Shown here in pieces: positions 14,053 through 49,420 of a stretch of DNA of 64,000 bases (positions are counted from its first letter, which is position 1; each line of letters begins with the position of its first letter). A program made the translations under genes and the position numbers. The notes under the pieces are model-generated. The model was not told where the DNA came from. It did no database searches and saw only the letters and a program-made list of their open reading frames with translations. Origin of the DNA: Heterohyrax brucei (taxonomy: Eukaryota > Chordata > Mammalia > Hyracoidea > Procaviidae); assembly GCA_028571685.1 (NCBI GenBank), contig CM053140.1:223467323-223531322 (forward strand), read 5' to 3'.

Positions 14053-14980
14053 TCCTGTATTCTTTTTTTTTTTTAATTTTTATTTGACATGAGTGAAAAT
14101 GTACATTCACGTATAAATTTACATGCCCACCTATACGCAGCTTCCACTGCTGTCCCTGTCCAGTGACTGCACACTATTCCTCTCTGTTCCATACATGTCT
14201 CATCCTCCCAGCAGTCTCCTTTCCCCGCCTCTCCAACCACTCTCCTTCCTCCAACCAGAGGTCAGCAGGCTGATATCCTACAGATGTATAGAACCATAAA
14301 GTGCATACAAAATATGGTCACTCTGCATTGCCAAGTCCCACCAATTTGAGTCCAAAGAGTGGATCTTCATTACGATTTATGGGCAAGGGCAACATCAGGG
14401 CCAGGGTCCATGCTCCCAGGGGAACCCCAAAACTGCTGGACCATCAACTAAGGTCTTTCAGTGGAGATCTCAGGATGCATCCCTTTTTATTCCTGTGTTG
14501 CCAGTGAGACTCAACTTAGTGAGCTCCATTGCGGCTATCACTGGTGGTGGCCGGGCACCATCCGGTTCTTCTGGTCCCAAGTCAATGTAGGCACCCACTC
14601 TTGTGGGTCTCTCCATATTCTCGGTTGTCTTTACCGCATGTCATTTTGGTCCTCGGTGAGCATCCATTCCTGCTGAGTTGGGACCATTTGCTGTGTTCTC
14701 GGATGGCAGCTTGGCAGCTTTTAAGACCCCAGATGCCACTCAACAATGTGGGGTGCAGAGAGCTCTCTTAGCAAAATGCTAGTTGTGCCAAATTGGCCTG
14801 GAATTCGCCTAAGAGCATGGTCCCCCACCCTCCACCCCAGCTACTCTATCCTTGCAGTATTGAGTCAAGATGGAAGGAGTACTCAAGTTATGCTGAAGTC
14901 CATTTAATATTGTTCTTGTTTCTAATGTGTGCTATCACTGCTTTCTCCCAACTAGATTTCTAGGAACTATCTAAACTAAA

Positions 14981-15014
14981 CCCTCCCCCCATCACCCTCC
15001 CTCCCTCCCCTCCC
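14981..15014 (-). promoter_or_regulatory. G-quadruplex-prone tract in the L1-B 3' UTR
   Basis: On the + strand seven runs of three or more C are separated by 1-4 bases (CCCTCCCCCC, then CCCTCCCTCCCTCCCCTCCC). The L1 RNA strand is thus G-rich enough for several G-quadruplex registers. A polypurine tract is a known feature of mammalian L1 3' UTRs. Confidence 0.75.
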
Positions 15015-15066
15015 TTGCAGCTGTCAAAGAGTCTTTTCTTCTATACACAAGTCTGTTTTTGAGATC

Positions 15067-18000
15067 TTATCGTAGAGGTCTCATACAGTATTTGTCCTTT
15101 TGTCGCTGCCTACTTTCACTCAACATAATGTCTTTCAGTTGAAACCAGGTTAGGAGATGTTTCCTGGAATCATCATTATTCTTTATCATTGCATAGTGCT
15201 CCATTGAGTATATGTACCATAGTTTACCTATCCATTCTTCTATTGTTGGGCATCTGGGTTGATTCCAACTTTTTGCTATTGTGGACTGTGCTGCGATAAA
15301 CATTCTGGTGCATCTGTCCATTGGTGTGAAAGGCCTTGATTCTGTAGGATATATTCCAAGTAGTGGAATGACTGGGTCAAATGGTATATCAATATCCATT
15401 GTTTTAAGGATGCACCTAATTGACTTCCAAAGAGGCTCGACCATTTTGCAACCCCACCAACAGTGTAGGAGGGTTCCACTTTCTCCACAGCCTCTCCAGC
15501 ATTTGTTGTTTTGCATTTTCCGGATCATAGCCAATCTTGTTGGGGTGAGATGGTATCTCATTGTTGTCTTGATTTGAATTTCTTTAATAACTAAAGATCA
15601 TGAACATGTCCGCATGTGTTTTTTGGCTGCCTGGATTTCCTCTTTAGTGAAATGTCTGTCCATCTCCTTTGCCCATCGCTTAATTGGATGGTTTATCTTC
15701 TTCTTATTAATATTTTGTAGTGTCTTATAGATTATGGAGATCAGGCGTCAGTCTGACATACAGTTGCCAAATATTTTTTCCCATTCTGTAGGTGTTCATT
15801 TAATTCTATTAATAAAGTCTTTGGATGAGCAAAAGTGTTTGATTCTTAATAGTTCCCATTTATCTATTTTCTCTTCTGTTGACTGAGGTTTCTTTGACAG
15901 ATTTTGGAGTCTGTCCTCATTGTGTATTAAAACTTCCATTGTTGTTCCTACCTTTTCTTGGATGAGCTTTATCGTTTTAGGTTTGATATTTAGGTCTTTT
16001 ATCCAGTTGGAATTGGTTTTTTTATAAGGTGTAAGATATGGATCTTGATTCAGTTTATTGCAGATGGATAACCAAGTTTGCCAGCACCATTTGTTGAAGA
16101 TACTGTTTTTACCCCAATTTAATGTCTTAGGGCCTTTGTCGAATATCAACTGTTCATAGGCAGATGGTGACATCCATCTGTCTGTTCTTGTACAAGTACC
16201 AGGCTGTTTTGACCACTGTGGCAGTGTAGTATGTTCTAAGGTTGGGTAATGAGAGGCCTCCCAGTGTGTTCTTCTTTAGTAGTACCTTACTTATCCAGGG
16301 CTTCTTCCCTTTCCAAACAAAATTGGTGATTTGTTTCTCTATCTCATTAAAAATTGATGCTGGAACTTGTATTGGGATTGCATTATATAAATAAATTGCT
16401 TTGAGTAAAATAGACATTTTCCCAATGTTAAGTCTTCCTATCCATGAGCAGCGTAGGTTTTTCCATTTATCTAAGTCTCTCTTAGTTTCCTGTAGTAAGG
16501 GCTTGTAGTTCTCTTTGTAAAGGTCTGTTGTTTCTCTGGTTAGATTAATTCCTAGGTACTTTATCTTCTTTGGGGCTATCGTAAATGGTATTAATTTGAT
16601 AATTTCCTCCTTAACAGTCTCGTTGTTGGTATAAAGGAATCCTACTGATTTACTTATGTTTATCTTGTATCCTGAGACTTTGCTGAAGTCTTCTATCAGT
16701 TTGAGTAGCTTACATATAGATTCCTTGGGGTTCTCTGCATATACAATCACATCCTCTGCAAACAGGGAGATTTTAACTTCCTCTTTGCCGATGCAGATGT
16801 CCTTTATTTCTTCGTCTTGTCTAATTGCTCTGGCTAGAACTTCCAGCACAATGTTGAATAGGAGAAGTGACGGTGGGCATCCTTGTCTAGTTCCTGATCT
16901 CAAGGGAAAGTTTTTCAGTCTCTCTCCAGTCAGGATGATGTGGGCAATTGGCTTTGTATAAATGGCCCTTATTGTGTTGAGGAATTTGCCACCTCTGCCC
17001 ATTTTGCTAAGAGTTTTTAGCACGAATGGGTGTTGGACTTTATCAAATGCCTTTTCGGCATCAATGGGCAAAATCAGGTGATCCTTGTCTTTTGTGTTAT
17101 TTATGTGGTTAATCACATTAATTGTTTTCCTGATGTTGAACCAGCCTTGCATCCCTGGAATGAATCCCACTTGGTCATGATGGATTATTTTCTTGATATG
17201 TTGTTGTATTCTTTTCTCAAGAATTTTGTTGAAGATTTTTGTATCTAGGTTCATGAGTGATATCGGTCTGTAGTTCTCTGTCTTTGTTGGGTCTTTCCCT
17301 GGCTTAGGTATCAGGGTTATGCTGGCTTCATAGAATGAGTTCAGGAGTACTCCATCCCTTTCTATACTGTGAAATAGTCTCAGTAGTATTGGGGATAACT
17401 CTTCTCTAAATGCTTGGTAGAATTCTGCTGTGAAGCCATCTGGGCCTGGACTTTTTTTGGTATGCAGTGTTTTGATGACCTTTCAATCTCTTCCTTTGTG
17501 AGGGGTTTATTAAGTTGTTCTGCTTCGCGTTGTGATAATTTGGGTAGGTGGTATGAGTCAAGGAATTAGTCCATTTCCCCTAGGTTTTCAAATTTGTTAT
17601 AGTCTTTCATAGTATTGTTATGATATTTTTTATTTCTGTTGCATCTGTGGGGACAACTCCCCTCTCATTTCTAATTTGGGTTATTTGTTTCCTTTCCTGC
17701 TTTTCTTTAGGAAGTTTAGCCAGTGGTTTATCAATTTTGTTGATCTTTTCAAAAAACCAGCTTTTGGACTTTTTGATATTTTCAATTGTTTTTCTATTCT
17801 CTAATTCATTTAGCTCTGCTCTAATCTTTATGATCTCATTTCTTCTGGTGCCCGAGGGGTTCTTCTGTTGTTCTCTTTCTACTTGTTCAAGCTGTAGAGT
17901 TAGTTCCTTGATTTGGTTTCTTTCTTCCTTACAGATGTGTGCATTTATGGAGATAAACAGACCTCTGAGCACTGCTTTGGCTGTATCCCACAGGTTTTGG

Positions 18001-30267: not shown

Positions 30268-30421
30268 TAAAAATCAAAAAACTCATTGTTGTCAAGTTGA
30301 TTCTGACTCATAGCAAACAGTGTAGAACTGCCCATAGAGTTTCCAAGAAGTTGCTGGTAAAATTGAACTGTCAACTTTTGATTAGTAGCTGAGCTCTTAA
30401 CCACTGTGCCTCCAGGGCTCA
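30268..30421 (-). mobile_element. AfroSINE, antisense
   Basis: GTTGTCAAGTTGATTCTGAC, GTGTAGAACTGCCCATAGAG and GCTCTTAACCACTGTGCCTC. It lies about 55 bp before the L1-D insertion site. Confidence 0.85.
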
Positions 30422-30475
30422 ATAATAAAATACAGTATTTGATAAATGGATATGTACATACATTTTCTCCAATCA

Positions 30476-30487
30476 ATTTTGTTTCTT
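30476..30487 (+). repeat. Target-site duplication of L1-D, upstream copy
   Basis: The 12-mer ATTTTGTTTCTT sits directly before the T-rich L1 tail. It is identical to 32384-32395. Confidence 0.85.
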
Positions 30488-32383
30488 TTTTATGTACTTT
30501 ATTTATTGTGATTGACTGAAAGTGTACAATTCAGTCTAAATTTGCATGCCTGCCTATGTGCAGCTCCTACTGTTCTACTTGCCTGGTGACAGCACACTCC
30601 TGCTTTCTGTTCCATACATGTCATAGCCTCTTAACAATCTCCTGTCTCCTCTTCTCCACCCTGTCCACTCCCCTCTAGCACGAGGCCAGTAGGACAGCAT
30701 CCTGTAGACACATAAAACCATAAAGTGCACACACAACATGGTCACTCTGTGTCACCAAGTCCAATCTTTCCCTGTCTAAGGAGTTGACCTCAGTAATCAC
30801 TTATGGACAGGAGCAGCATCGGGACTGGGGGCCATGCTCTCAGGGGAACACTGTGGCCTTTGGACCATCAGTTGCAATCTTTTAGTGGAGTTCTCAGGGT
30901 GCACTCCTTTTTATTCTCATGTTGCCACTGAGACTCAACTTTATGAGCCCCATCATGGCTGTCACTGGTGGTGGCCGGGCACCATCTGGTTATTCTGGTC
31001 ACATGTTGATGTAATCACTTATTCCCTTGAGTCTTTTTGTCTTCTGGGTTCTCTTTCCCCCATGTTGTTTTGGTCCTTGGTGATCATCTGTTCCTGCTGA
31101 GTCAGGACTATTTGGTGTATCTCAGATGGCAGCTTTTTAGACCCCAGATGCCACTCACCAATATGGGGTGTGGAAGACTCTCTTAGCAGTGGGCTAGTTA
31201 TGCCATTTGGCCTTGGTGTCCTCTGGGAGTGTGGTCCCCAGACTCCACCCCTTCTACTCTGTCCTTGCAATATTGGGTTAAGATTGGAAGAGTATTCATG
31301 TTATGATGAAACCCACTTAAATCGATCTTCTTTCTAATGTGTGCTGTCACTGATTTCATCCAACCAAATTTTATCTGATCTGCAACCAGCCGTCTCCCTC
31401 TCTCCCTTCCCTCCCTAGCAGCCACCAAAGAGTCTTTTCTGCTGTACATGAGTCTCTTTTTAAGTCTTTATAGTAGGGGTCTCATACAATATTTGTCCTT
31501 GTGCTGCTGACTAATTTCACTCAACACAGTGTCTTCCAGTTGAAACCAAGTTATGAGATGTTTCCTAAAATCATCATTGTTCTTTATCGTTACATGGTGT
31601 TCCATTGAGTATATATACCATAGTTTATTTATCCAGTCATCTGTTGTTGGACATCTGGGTTAATTCCATCTTTTTGCTATTGTGCACTGTGCTGCAATAA
31701 ACATTCATGTGCATGTATCTGTTCATGTGAATGCCCTTGCTTCTGTAGGATATATTCCAAGCAATGGAATTACTGGGTCAAATGGTATATCTATTTCCAA
31801 CTTTTTAAGGAAGCACCAGATTGCTTTCCAAAGAGGTTGTACCATTTTGCAATTTCAACAGCAGTCTAGGAGAGTTCCAATTTCTCCACACTCTCTCCAG
31901 CGTTTGTTGTTTTGTGTTTTTTGGATCATGGCCAACCTTGCTGGGGTGAGGTGATATCTCATCATAGTTTTGATTTGCGTTTCTTTAATAGCTAATGATG
32001 GTGAGCATTTCTGCATGTGTCTTTTGGCTGCCTGGATATCCTCTTTAGAGAAGTATCTGTCCATCTCCATCACTCATCATTTAATTGGATTATTTGTCTT
32101 TTTCTTGTTGATATTTTTAGTACCTTGTAGATTGTGGAGATCAGATGCTGGCCCCACATATAGTTGCCAAGTATTTTTTTTTCCCATTCTCTAGGTGGTC
32201 TTTTAATTCTTTTGATAAATTCTTTGGATGAGCAAAAGTGTTTGATTCTCAGCATTTCCCATTTATCTATTTTCTCTTCTGTTGATCATGCTTTGTTTGT
32301 CAGTTTATGAAGTCTGTCTACATTGTGTATTAAAATTTCCATTGTTGATCCTATTTTTTCTTGGGCAAGCTTTATCATTTTCG
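30488..32383 (-). mobile_element. L1-D, 5'-truncated antisense L1 abutting RGS5 exon 4
   Basis: An L1 of about 1.9 kb lies antisense to RGS5. On the + strand it starts with a T-rich tail, then the 3' UTR (30500-31467), then the ORF2 C-terminal part (31468-32383), and is cut off at its 5' side. The ORF2 part includes the linker just after the RT domain ([16 protein letters not shown]) and the Cys-rich end, broken by frameshifts. Both flanks carry the identical 12-mer ATTTTGTTTCTT, a normal target-site duplication. Read on the minus strand it begins AAGAAA, as expected for L1 endonuclease nicking. Confidence 0.9.
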
Positions 32384-32400
32384 ATTTTGTTTCTTGATAG
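32365..32400 (+). promoter_or_regulatory. Exon 4 splice acceptor rebuilt from a target-site duplication plus antisense L1
   Basis: The AG at 32399-32400 is preceded by ATTTTGTTTCTT, which is the 3' copy of the L1-D target-site duplication. Upstream of 32384 the sequence aligns with antisense L1 ORF2 (compare 15955-15985). A YTNAY-type branch candidate, TTTAT, places its A about 27 nt before the exon, inside L1 sequence. The use of that branch point is inference. Confidence 0.7.
32384..32395 (+). repeat. Target-site duplication of L1-D, downstream copy, serving as polypyrimidine tract
   Basis: This copy matches the upstream one in all 12 bases. It is followed by GATAG and then exon 4, so it forms the pyrimidine tract of the acceptor. 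Confidence 0.85.
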
Positions 32401-32567
32401 ATGGACTTGCCAGCTTCAAAAACTTCCTGAAGTCTGAGTTCAGTGAAGAAAACCTTGAGTTCTGGATTGCCTGTGAGGATTACAAGAAGATCAAGTCCCC
32501 TGACAAGATGGCTGAGAAGGCAAAGGAAATTTATGAAGAATTTATCCAAACTGAAGCTCCTAAAGAG
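32401..32567 (+). CDS. RGS5: RGS5 exon 4 (first large exon of the RGS domain)
   Basis: This internal coding exon of 167 bp encodes 55 whole codons after a split codon (phase 2 start, phase 0 end). RGS5 is a GTPase-activating protein for Gi and Gq alpha subunits, prominent in pericytes and vascular smooth muscle. The peptide runs from [13 protein letters not shown] through [16 protein letters not shown] to FIQTEAPKE, the first half of the RGS fold. The SEEN motif holds the residues matching RGS4 Glu87 and Asn88 that contact G-alpha. The acceptor is TTTCTTGATAG before AT-GGA. The donor is GAG followed by gttggt, with T at +3, a weaker match than gtaagt. The reading frame joins exon 5 exactly. 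As I recall the human protein, a few positions differ conservatively (for example Asn in FKNFL and Asp in SPDKM). RGS4, RGS8 or RGS16 fit the peptide less well. An antisense L1 abuts the acceptor. Confidence 0.93.
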
Positions 32568-32984
32568 GTTGGTCCTGAGATAGAGGTAGATGAGTAAGGG
32601 CAGTGAGAGTTAGCTCAACTGCCCAGGAAGAATATACATCTGAGTTACAGGCCTATGAATTTGGAGTCTAGGAGTACTCCTCTTAGGGAGTAGGCCACAC
32701 TTATTAAGCACCTACTGAGGGCAAAGATGAGCAATATGGTCAAGCAGATGTAAATGTGACTCCTATGGGGAATGCTTCCAGTCAGATGAACCTTACTTGA
32801 GTAATAAATAATCCTACTTGGCAGTAATACCTCTTGAGTGATCTTGGATAATTTGTTATATCTCTCTGAACTTAGTTTCTTTTCTTTCTTTCTCCCTCTC
32901 TCTTTTCTGTTATGAAGTTTTATTATCATGTTTTTGAAGTTTACACAGAATACTAGGTTTCCATTTAACAATTTCTGTACATTT

Positions 32985-39659: not shown

Positions 39660-39821
39660 GTGAATATTGACCACTTCACGAAGGACATCACACTGAAGAA
39701 CCTGGTGCAGCCTTCTCTGGGCAGCTTTGACGAGGCCCAGAAAAGAATCCACGCCCTCATGGAGAAGGATTCGCTGCCTCGCTTTGTGCGCTCTGAGTTT
39801 TATCAGGAGTTGATTAAGTAA
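39660..39821 (+). CDS. RGS5: RGS5 exon 5, terminal coding exon with stop
   Basis: This exon encodes the last 53 residues of RGS5, from [10 protein letters not shown] to FYQELIK, then TAA. The acceptor is strong: a pyrimidine tract followed by gacctgcag. The first codons give Val-Asn, where Asn matches RGS4 Asn128, which touches the G-alpha catalytic Gln. [12 protein letters not shown] carries the counterparts of RGS4 Leu159, Asp163 and Arg167. The second half of the RGS fold is therefore complete and shows no disabling change. The short tail after the RGS domain fits the small R4-subfamily proteins such as RGS5. Exon 4 ends in phase 0 and this exon begins with a whole codon. The conserved frame and intact splice sites argue for a working gene, not a pseudogene. 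Confidence 0.94.
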
Positions 39822-48125: not shown

Positions 48126-49420
48126 ATAAGGTTTAACAATTACATTGTGAACTCATCCTAGAAAAAGTGCTATATACCTCATGTTGAATATCACTATGGT
48201 CACTTCAAAGTACTCCCCTTGGCAAGCTATGCACTGATTTTCCAGCACCTAATCTACCCTTCAAAGCAATTTTGGAACTCTTTTCTGGAATAGCCATCAG
48301 AGCTGTCATCATATTACTCTTGGTGTCCTGAACATCACCCAAATTTCTTCCTTTCAATATTTCCTTATCTTTGGGTAAAGAAAAAAGCCACTGTAGGTCA
48401 GATCAGGTGAGTAGGGAGGATGTTCCAATACAGTTATTTGTTTACTGGCTAAAACTTCTCTCACAGACAATGGCATGTGAGCTGCTACATTGTTGTGTTG
48501 CAAGAGCAGTGAGTTGTTGGCAAAAAGTTCAGGTGTTTTTGTCTAATTTTTCACACAGTGTTTTCAGCACCTCCAAACCATGAACTTGGTTGACTGTTTG
48601 TCCACTTGGTGCAAATTCATAATGAACAATCCCTCTGATATAAAAAATTGGTTAGCAACATTGTTTTGACTCTTAATTTGGACTGATAGAATTTTTGGTT
48701 GTGGAGAATTGGCTGACTTCCATTGTGCACTTTGATACTTTGTTCAGGGTCATATTGGTACACTGACATTTCATCACCGGTGATAACATGGCACCAAACA
48801 TCGTCTGGCTTCTCCAAAAGGGCTTGGCAAACTTCAACTCTCTTTTGCTTTTGTTCATCAGTGAGCTCCTTTGGTATCATTTTTGTACACGTCTTTCTCA
48901 TGCCAAGATTTTCAGTTAAGATTTTCTGTTTCTGTATCAATGTTTGCTTGGTCTGCTATGCTTCTCACAGTCAGCCAACAAGTATGATGCACAATTTGAT
49001 GAATTTTTACAATGTTTTCATCAGATCTGCTGGCTATTGGCCTCCCTGAACTCTCTTCACTAGTGACACTTTCCCTTCAGGAAAATATTTAATTCATCTG
49101 TACACTGCCATTTTCTTCATGGTATTATCCCCACAAACTTGGACTAACATGTTTCTGATTTCACTTCCGCTCTTGCCAAGTTTAACCAGAAAGTAAATGT
49201 TTGTTCATTGCTGTAATTCAAGCTCCAACATTCTCATGACAGCACACAAAACACACAAGAGTGATGAACACCACTCAGCAAGACACTGCTACGTGTTGAC
49301 ATGACATGAACACAGATGTGAGACACTGATATACCAAGGTTATGAAACCTTACTGAGTTGTTTGTACAGTGCTGCCAGTGTACGCGCACAATGGCTAGCT
49401 CACAAACTTATTGTCAGACC
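48126..49420 (-). mobile_element. Full-length mariner-like DNA transposon (about 1.3 kb)
   Basis: The ends are AAGGTTTAACAATTACATTG and, in inverse, AGGTCTGACAATAAGTTTGT. The length is normal for mariner. The arms match those of the two foldback elements (CATCCTAGAAAAAGTGCTA; GGTCACTTCAAAGTACTCCC). It is the only copy in the window with the whole transposase region. Confidence 0.88.
48180..49240 (-). pseudogene. Mariner transposase, dead
   Basis: The gene would cut and paste the element through a D,D34D catalytic triad. The first Asp is present in VITGDEMSVYQYDPE (open frame 48940-48617). The second, expected in a HDN motif, is HNN (GAC to AAC) near 48495. The third, 34 residues later by my count, is Gly in YSGFFLYP near 48385. 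WVY next to TGDE is also altered (EMSVY). Frameshifts break the gene further. Family name not assigned. Confidence 0.85.

Follow-up and report, generated by a model that had tools for sequence, protein, structure and literature searches.

An Antisense L1 in the Acceptor of RGS5 Exon 4 and Its Likely Contribution of the Branch Point

Introduction

How might a coding exon still be spliced after an L1 has come to lie 17 nt upstream of it and the sequence that presumably held its branch point has been moved away? This question is raised by exon 4 of RGS5, which lies in the window, i.e., the whole stretch of 64,000 nucleotides that was analysed (C1:223467323–223531322). Insertions so near to acceptors are rare and can cause disease. 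Few transposable elements lie less than 20 bp from an acceptor, although cases are recorded (PMC3088655). De novo Alus in the acceptor pyrimidine tracts of NF1 lead to exon skipping (PMC3219598).

Results and Discussion

L1 Insertion and Target-Site Duplication

RGS5 is encoded on the + strand; exons 1–3 are located on contig C1 upstream of the window, and intron 3 spans about 36 kb. The features of the insertion site and of the downstream exons are as follows.

30422 to 30475, + strand: flank on the upstream side of the insertion, in which the old, now displaced branch region lies.
30476 to 30487, + strand: upstream copy of the target-site duplication, ATTTTGTTTCTT, perfect over 12 bp.
30488 to 32383, − strand (antisense to RGS5): 5′-truncated L1 of 1,896 bp, recognized by homology to other copies in the window and the genome.
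32384 to 32395, + strand: downstream copy of the duplication, ATTTTGTTTCTT, which at present forms the pyrimidine tract next to exon 4.
32396 to 32400, + strand: GATAG between the downstream copy and exon 4, with the acceptor AG at 32399–32400.
32401 to 32567, + strand: RGS5 exon 4, 167 nt, encoding the RGS domain (PF00615), in frame and intact.
39660 to 39821, + strand: coding part of RGS5 exon 5, including the stop codon.

The labels L1 and ORF2 were assigned by resemblance and by repetition in the genome; a search of Pfam with a 40-aa piece of the L1 gave no match. The ends of the element were evaluated against other copies. The query 32184–32383 gave 17 matches in 318 kb (the window, its flanks and other loci of the same genome), 13 of which reached at least 32370, one of them being the RGS5 L1 itself; the remaining four fell short and were left out. 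In all 12 other copies that reached the junction, L1 sequence went on past the 5′ end of the RGS5 L1, and because of this continuation the 5′ end was placed independently of the repeat. The query stopped at 32383, and the extent of homology beyond it was taken from the alignment with the copy at 14060–15984, which aligns with 30483–32387 at 78% identity. Four to five nucleotides at the junction, (G)ATTT, where ATTT is 32384–32387, were compatible with both the L1 and the repeat; bases that fit both element and target are usual at L1 5′ junctions. The part of the duplication that is certainly not L1 was TGTTTCTT, 8 bp past the L1 homology. At the 3′ end of the L1, a T run of 4–6 on the + strand adjoined the duplication, and the poly(A) was short or eroded. 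The endonuclease site in the L1 orientation would be TC/AAGA, which is near, but not equal to, the consensus TT/AAAA.

It was considered very improbable that the repeat is a chance T-rich match, that the assembly is misjoined at this position, or that the L1 is ancient in all eutherians. Both L1 ends are T-rich, and the 4–5 nt of the downstream copy that also fit the L1 are in keeping with a chance match. However, matches of at least 12 bp occurred in 0.16% of 60,000 T-rich pairs from the window, a null set that still includes real repeats. The assembly comprised 3.49 Gb in 62 contigs, and a misjoin would not yield a matched duplication at both ends of the L1. Insertion within the exon 4 pyrimidine tract, probably by target-primed reverse transcription, was supported. 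The view that the duplication would keep positions −17 to −1 as in the empty site was likewise supported, and the L1-free acceptor would be expected to read like ...CCAATCAATTTTGTTTCTTGATAG.

The original prediction had placed a perfect 12-bp duplication around an L1, followed by GATAG and exon 4; both copies were recovered at 30476–30487 and 32384–32395, with the exon beginning at 32401. Its claim that the L1 landed in the pyrimidine tract agreed with the ends placed by the 12 other copies and by the duplication on both sides, and the intact tract that it described beside the AG corresponds to the unchanged −17 to −1.

The 17-mer ATTTTGTTTCTTGATAG at C1:223499706–223499722 (32384–32400 in the window) had four genomic occurrences, including this one. 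Degenerate exon 4 patterns gave 0 matches in genome_contigs and 0 in viral_contigs, both of which are without other mammals. An AfroSINE in reverse orientation (30272–30421, end branch 0.106) stops about 55 bp before the upstream duplication copy and would be about 70 bp from exon 4 without the L1.

Age of the Insertion

When ten copies were placed in a tree on the basis of about 1.5 kb, the end branch of the RGS5 L1 was 0.081 substitutions per site, an upper bound that takes in changes of the source element before insertion. The mean over 60 column resamplings with another program was 0.090 (0.074–0.107). The AfroSINE copies of the window indicate an afrotherian source of the DNA, probably an elephant. 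AfroSINEs were used for comparison, and the set comprised 41 pieces that covered at least 85% of the query, out of 66 matches. Their median end branch in the same DNA was 0.15 (n = 41). End branches shorter than 0.081, 0.090 and 0.107 were found for 3, 5 and 10 of the 41, respectively, such that the L1 branch (0.08–0.09) was below that of 36–38 of them, which argues against an L1 ancient in all eutherians. Because the L1 branch is shorter than that of most AfroSINEs, and provided that AfroSINEs are limited to Afrotheria, the RGS5 L1 is old, yet was probably inserted inside the afrotherian lineage. From a neutral tree in which the elephant end branch after the hyrax split is about 0.08, sharing of the insertion with manatee, and perhaps with hyrax, would be expected. 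Two copies of the same lineage, at 14060–15984 and L035:6628–4715, had end branches of only about 0.03. The lineage was probably still active well after the RGS5 insertion.

Displaced Branch Region and New Branch Candidates

The old branch region is now 1.9 kb from the acceptor, and 91 AGs, including 50 YAG, lie in between. Splicing normally uses an AG that lies more than about 8–12 nt below the branch point (PMC7969005). According to this rule and the 91 intervening AGs, the old branch point should be out of reach. The AG-free zone upstream of the acceptor measures 29 nt, whereas that of the empty-site join measures 55 nt. The following features bound or occupy the present zone.

32368 to 32369, + strand: nearest AG upstream of the acceptor (−33/−32), which bounds the 29-nt AG-free zone.
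32370 to 32376, + strand: CTTTATC in L1 sequence, first-choice branch candidate, with the A at 32374 (−27).
32377, + strand: A-24 (TATCATT) in L1 sequence, second branch candidate.

Both A-27 and A-24 are preceded by U at −2 and followed by a pyrimidine at +1. Moreover, both are 19–37 nt away from the acceptor, as are 90% of human branch points (PMC7951965). Their predicted pairing with U2 was weak, with 6 hydrogen bonds each, whereas A-53 and the best exon 5 candidate had 12. A-53 (GTTGATC), the best U2 match, was set aside because the AG at −33/−32 lies between it and the acceptor; splicing there would lengthen the exon by 31 nt and put it out of frame. A-4 was also rejected, since the acceptor is too close, although the U/pyrimidine pattern fits. 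At the place of A-27, the other L1 copies carried CTTTATC in 4/12 and TTTAT in 7/12. The absence of the full CTTTATC from 8/12 counts against an L1-borne motif; nevertheless, given the frequency of both forms in the other copies, the L1 probably brought the A-27 motif itself, with later change possible.

A different account accepts the insertion and the duplication but places the branch at A-17, the adenine that opens the duplicated tract, where host-type sequence would work and the L1 would be a passive spacer. A-17 would form 8 hydrogen bonds with U2, above A-27 or A-24, and an equivalent adenine stands at that position in the empty-site join. However, A-17 has no U at −2 (TTTCGATT), the adenine fits the L1 equally well as the host, and its distance from the AG is shorter than the 19–37 nt of most branch points (PMC7951965). 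A branch at A-17 was judged unlikely. Given the AG-free zone and where the motifs lie, the most plausible reading is that splicing relies on a branch point within the L1, as the original prediction had proposed.

The original prediction had stated that the ancestral branch region was displaced by 1.9 kb and that a TTTAT candidate lay in the L1 about 27 nt from the exon, which is A-27. Its positions, the displacement and this adenine held, but it had passed over the AG at −33/−32, the rival AG at 32193–32194 and the AG-to-CG difference considered below.

CG in Place of the Family AG

32382 to 32383, + strand: CG at −19/−18, where 11 of the 12 other L1 copies have AG and one has AT.

The same place reads TTTTAG in ten of the 12 copies, CTTTAG in one and TTTTAT in one. 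The family AG would be a premature acceptor at −19/−18, 9 nt below A-27 and thus near the quoted threshold. By simple arithmetic on two bases, the chance of losing either base of this AG without selection at 0.081 was about 15%. Selection for the AG-to-CG difference is suggestive only, because a chance change or untemplated bases at the junction explain the CG.

Taken together, we consider it likely, with some reserve, that an L1 was inserted in the exon 4 acceptor, most likely in the afrotherian lineage, that the same AG is still spliced, and that the branch is now an L1 adenine. Evident from the sequence are the L1 in the exon 4 pyrimidine tract, −17 to −1 as kept by the duplication, the shift of the old branch region by 1.9 kb and the undamaged exon; target-primed reverse transcription would account for the insertion. 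Exon 4 would then be spliced at the original AG, with the U2 snRNP picking an adenine inside the L1, A-27 (CTTTATC) first and A-24 second. The acceptor may work partly because the typical family AG at −19/−18 is CG here, whether from junction formation or from a later change. The tolerance of the insertion would be explained by the combination of the kept 17-nt tract, the L1 branch motif and the missing AG.

Rival Acceptor and Repressor Motifs

32193 to 32194, + strand: higher-scoring rival acceptor AG in the L1 (TTTTTTCCCATTCTCTAG/GTG), lying 206 nt ahead of exon 4.

With approximate weights, the rival acceptor scored 7.2 and the true one 4.5; the latter ranked sixth among the 95 AGs in 30441–32440, the best being that at 32193–32194. 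Use of the rival acceptor (206 nt) or skipping of exon 4 (167 nt) would shift the frame, since neither length is divisible by three. The L1-derived sequence at 32185–32200 contains YAG/GTGG, in which an acceptor directly adjoins a possible weak donor, an arrangement like that of recursive splice sites, and the L1 copy at 14060–15984 has CTGTAGGTG at this place.

The density of repressor motifs was also evaluated. The RGS5 L1 had 5.3 MATR3-type and 13.8 PTBP1-type motifs per kb, and nine other copies had 1.4–6.1 and 7.4–18.9, respectively. Loss of repressor motifs was rejected as the reason for tolerance because the densities were not reduced relative to the nine other copies. Antisense L1s bind MATR3 and PTBP1 and repress neighbouring splicing, young ones are depleted near exons, and the insulation gradually weakens with L1 divergence (PMC6108849).

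These scores and motifs bear on the possibility that the L1 weakened exon 4, with skipping or use of the 32195 acceptor in some tissues, both frameshifting, as a brake on RGS5. The higher score of the L1 acceptor, the two lengths not divisible by three, and the attraction of MATR3 and PTBP1 by antisense L1s, whose motifs are not reduced here, speak for such weakening. However, RGS5 is open, exon 4 looks constrained (see below), and insulation fades as L1s diverge (PMC6108849), the RGS5 L1 being old. We give this possibility a low probability, equal to that of a branch at A-17. That the L1 is a repressor landing zone which, with its higher-scoring and frameshifting acceptor, makes the constitutive exon 4 a switch, such that RGS5 output in the lineage is set by tissue MATR3/PTBP1-type silencing, was thought more doubtful still.

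Constraint on Exon 4

The reading frame was open throughout the five RGS5 exons. The end of exon 3 (AACAACT) and exon 4 (ATGGACTT) gave an in-frame join that encodes NNYGL. The exon 4 product was identical to human RGS5 (PDB 2crp) at 53/56 residues, counted from 32403, in agreement with the earlier description of the exon as undamaged and in frame. In a simulation of unconstrained drift at 0.081 (20,000 runs), a mean of 9.1 residue changes was expected; three changes or fewer occurred in 1.4% of the runs and a stop in 36%, whereas 3/56 were observed over the whole path to human. Since the L1 branch gives only a maximum age, the test loses force should the insertion be younger. Judged by these comparisons, exon 4 looks constrained.

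A retrocopy of RGS5, as a possible record of spliced junctions, was not found among the 38 matches of the RGS5 protein to its own genome, which were the best candidates only. Long continuous matches to the protein were rejected as retrocopies; they were other RGS-like genes with 33–46% identity, and RGS5 itself was matched exon by exon. Past the window, the minus strand carries exons of another RGS gene, which we take to be RGS4 by position. The exon 4 donor at 32568–32573 is GTTGGT, which looks weak relative to the splice consensus. In RGS5 exon 2 (locus L026), EKP of NEKPEKPAKT is absent, in frame, relative to the human protein.

Relation to Known Systems

The L1 considered here shares with the near-exon zone of under-representation that it is a fixed L1 less than 20 bp from an acceptor in antisense, the better tolerated LINE orientation (PMC3088655). 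That work is statistical and gives seven full-length human L1s less than 20 bp from exons, only two of them at acceptors, whereas a single truncated L1 was analysed here for duplication, age and branch. The NF1 Alus were likewise inserted by L1 endonuclease in an acceptor tract; they lead to skipping in patients, whereas the RGS5 L1 is old and its gene open (PMC3219598). In pseudoexons, a transposable element, in one case a LINE, likewise gives part of the predicted branch sequence (PMC7951965). Those are new exons, whereas RGS5 exon 4 is a pre-existing coding exon whose AG was kept and for which only the sequence upstream of −17 was exchanged. As with the antisense L1s insulated by MATR3 and PTBP1, the RGS5 L1 is antisense and retains CT-rich and ATCTT/ATGTT motifs; young L1s are depleted near exons, whereas this one has been tolerated 17 nt from one (PMC6108849). 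The Alu of RBMX2 intron 3 was rejected as a precedent, since it has its own polypyrimidine tract (PMC8675739).

A search by title or abstract found nothing on this RGS5 L1 among the matches listed, which is not proof of absence from print, and sequence words searched in published text had their sole match in a microsporidian context. The RGS5 case adds to the recorded transposable elements near acceptors and to branch sequences supplied by such elements, and it is not new in kind. This old insertion suggests what survival needs: a duplication that keeps the tract and the AG, and an element end that gives a branch adenine with no AG before the exon. Such a rule is a testable criterion for judging splice-site insertions, for which the RGS5 L1 is a good natural experiment.

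One further element was observed in the window. An 87-aa piece of the open stretch at 48716–48877 on the minus strand had no match in Pfam; the stretch, LEKPDDVWCHVITGDEMSVYQYDPEQ, resembles a mariner transposase.
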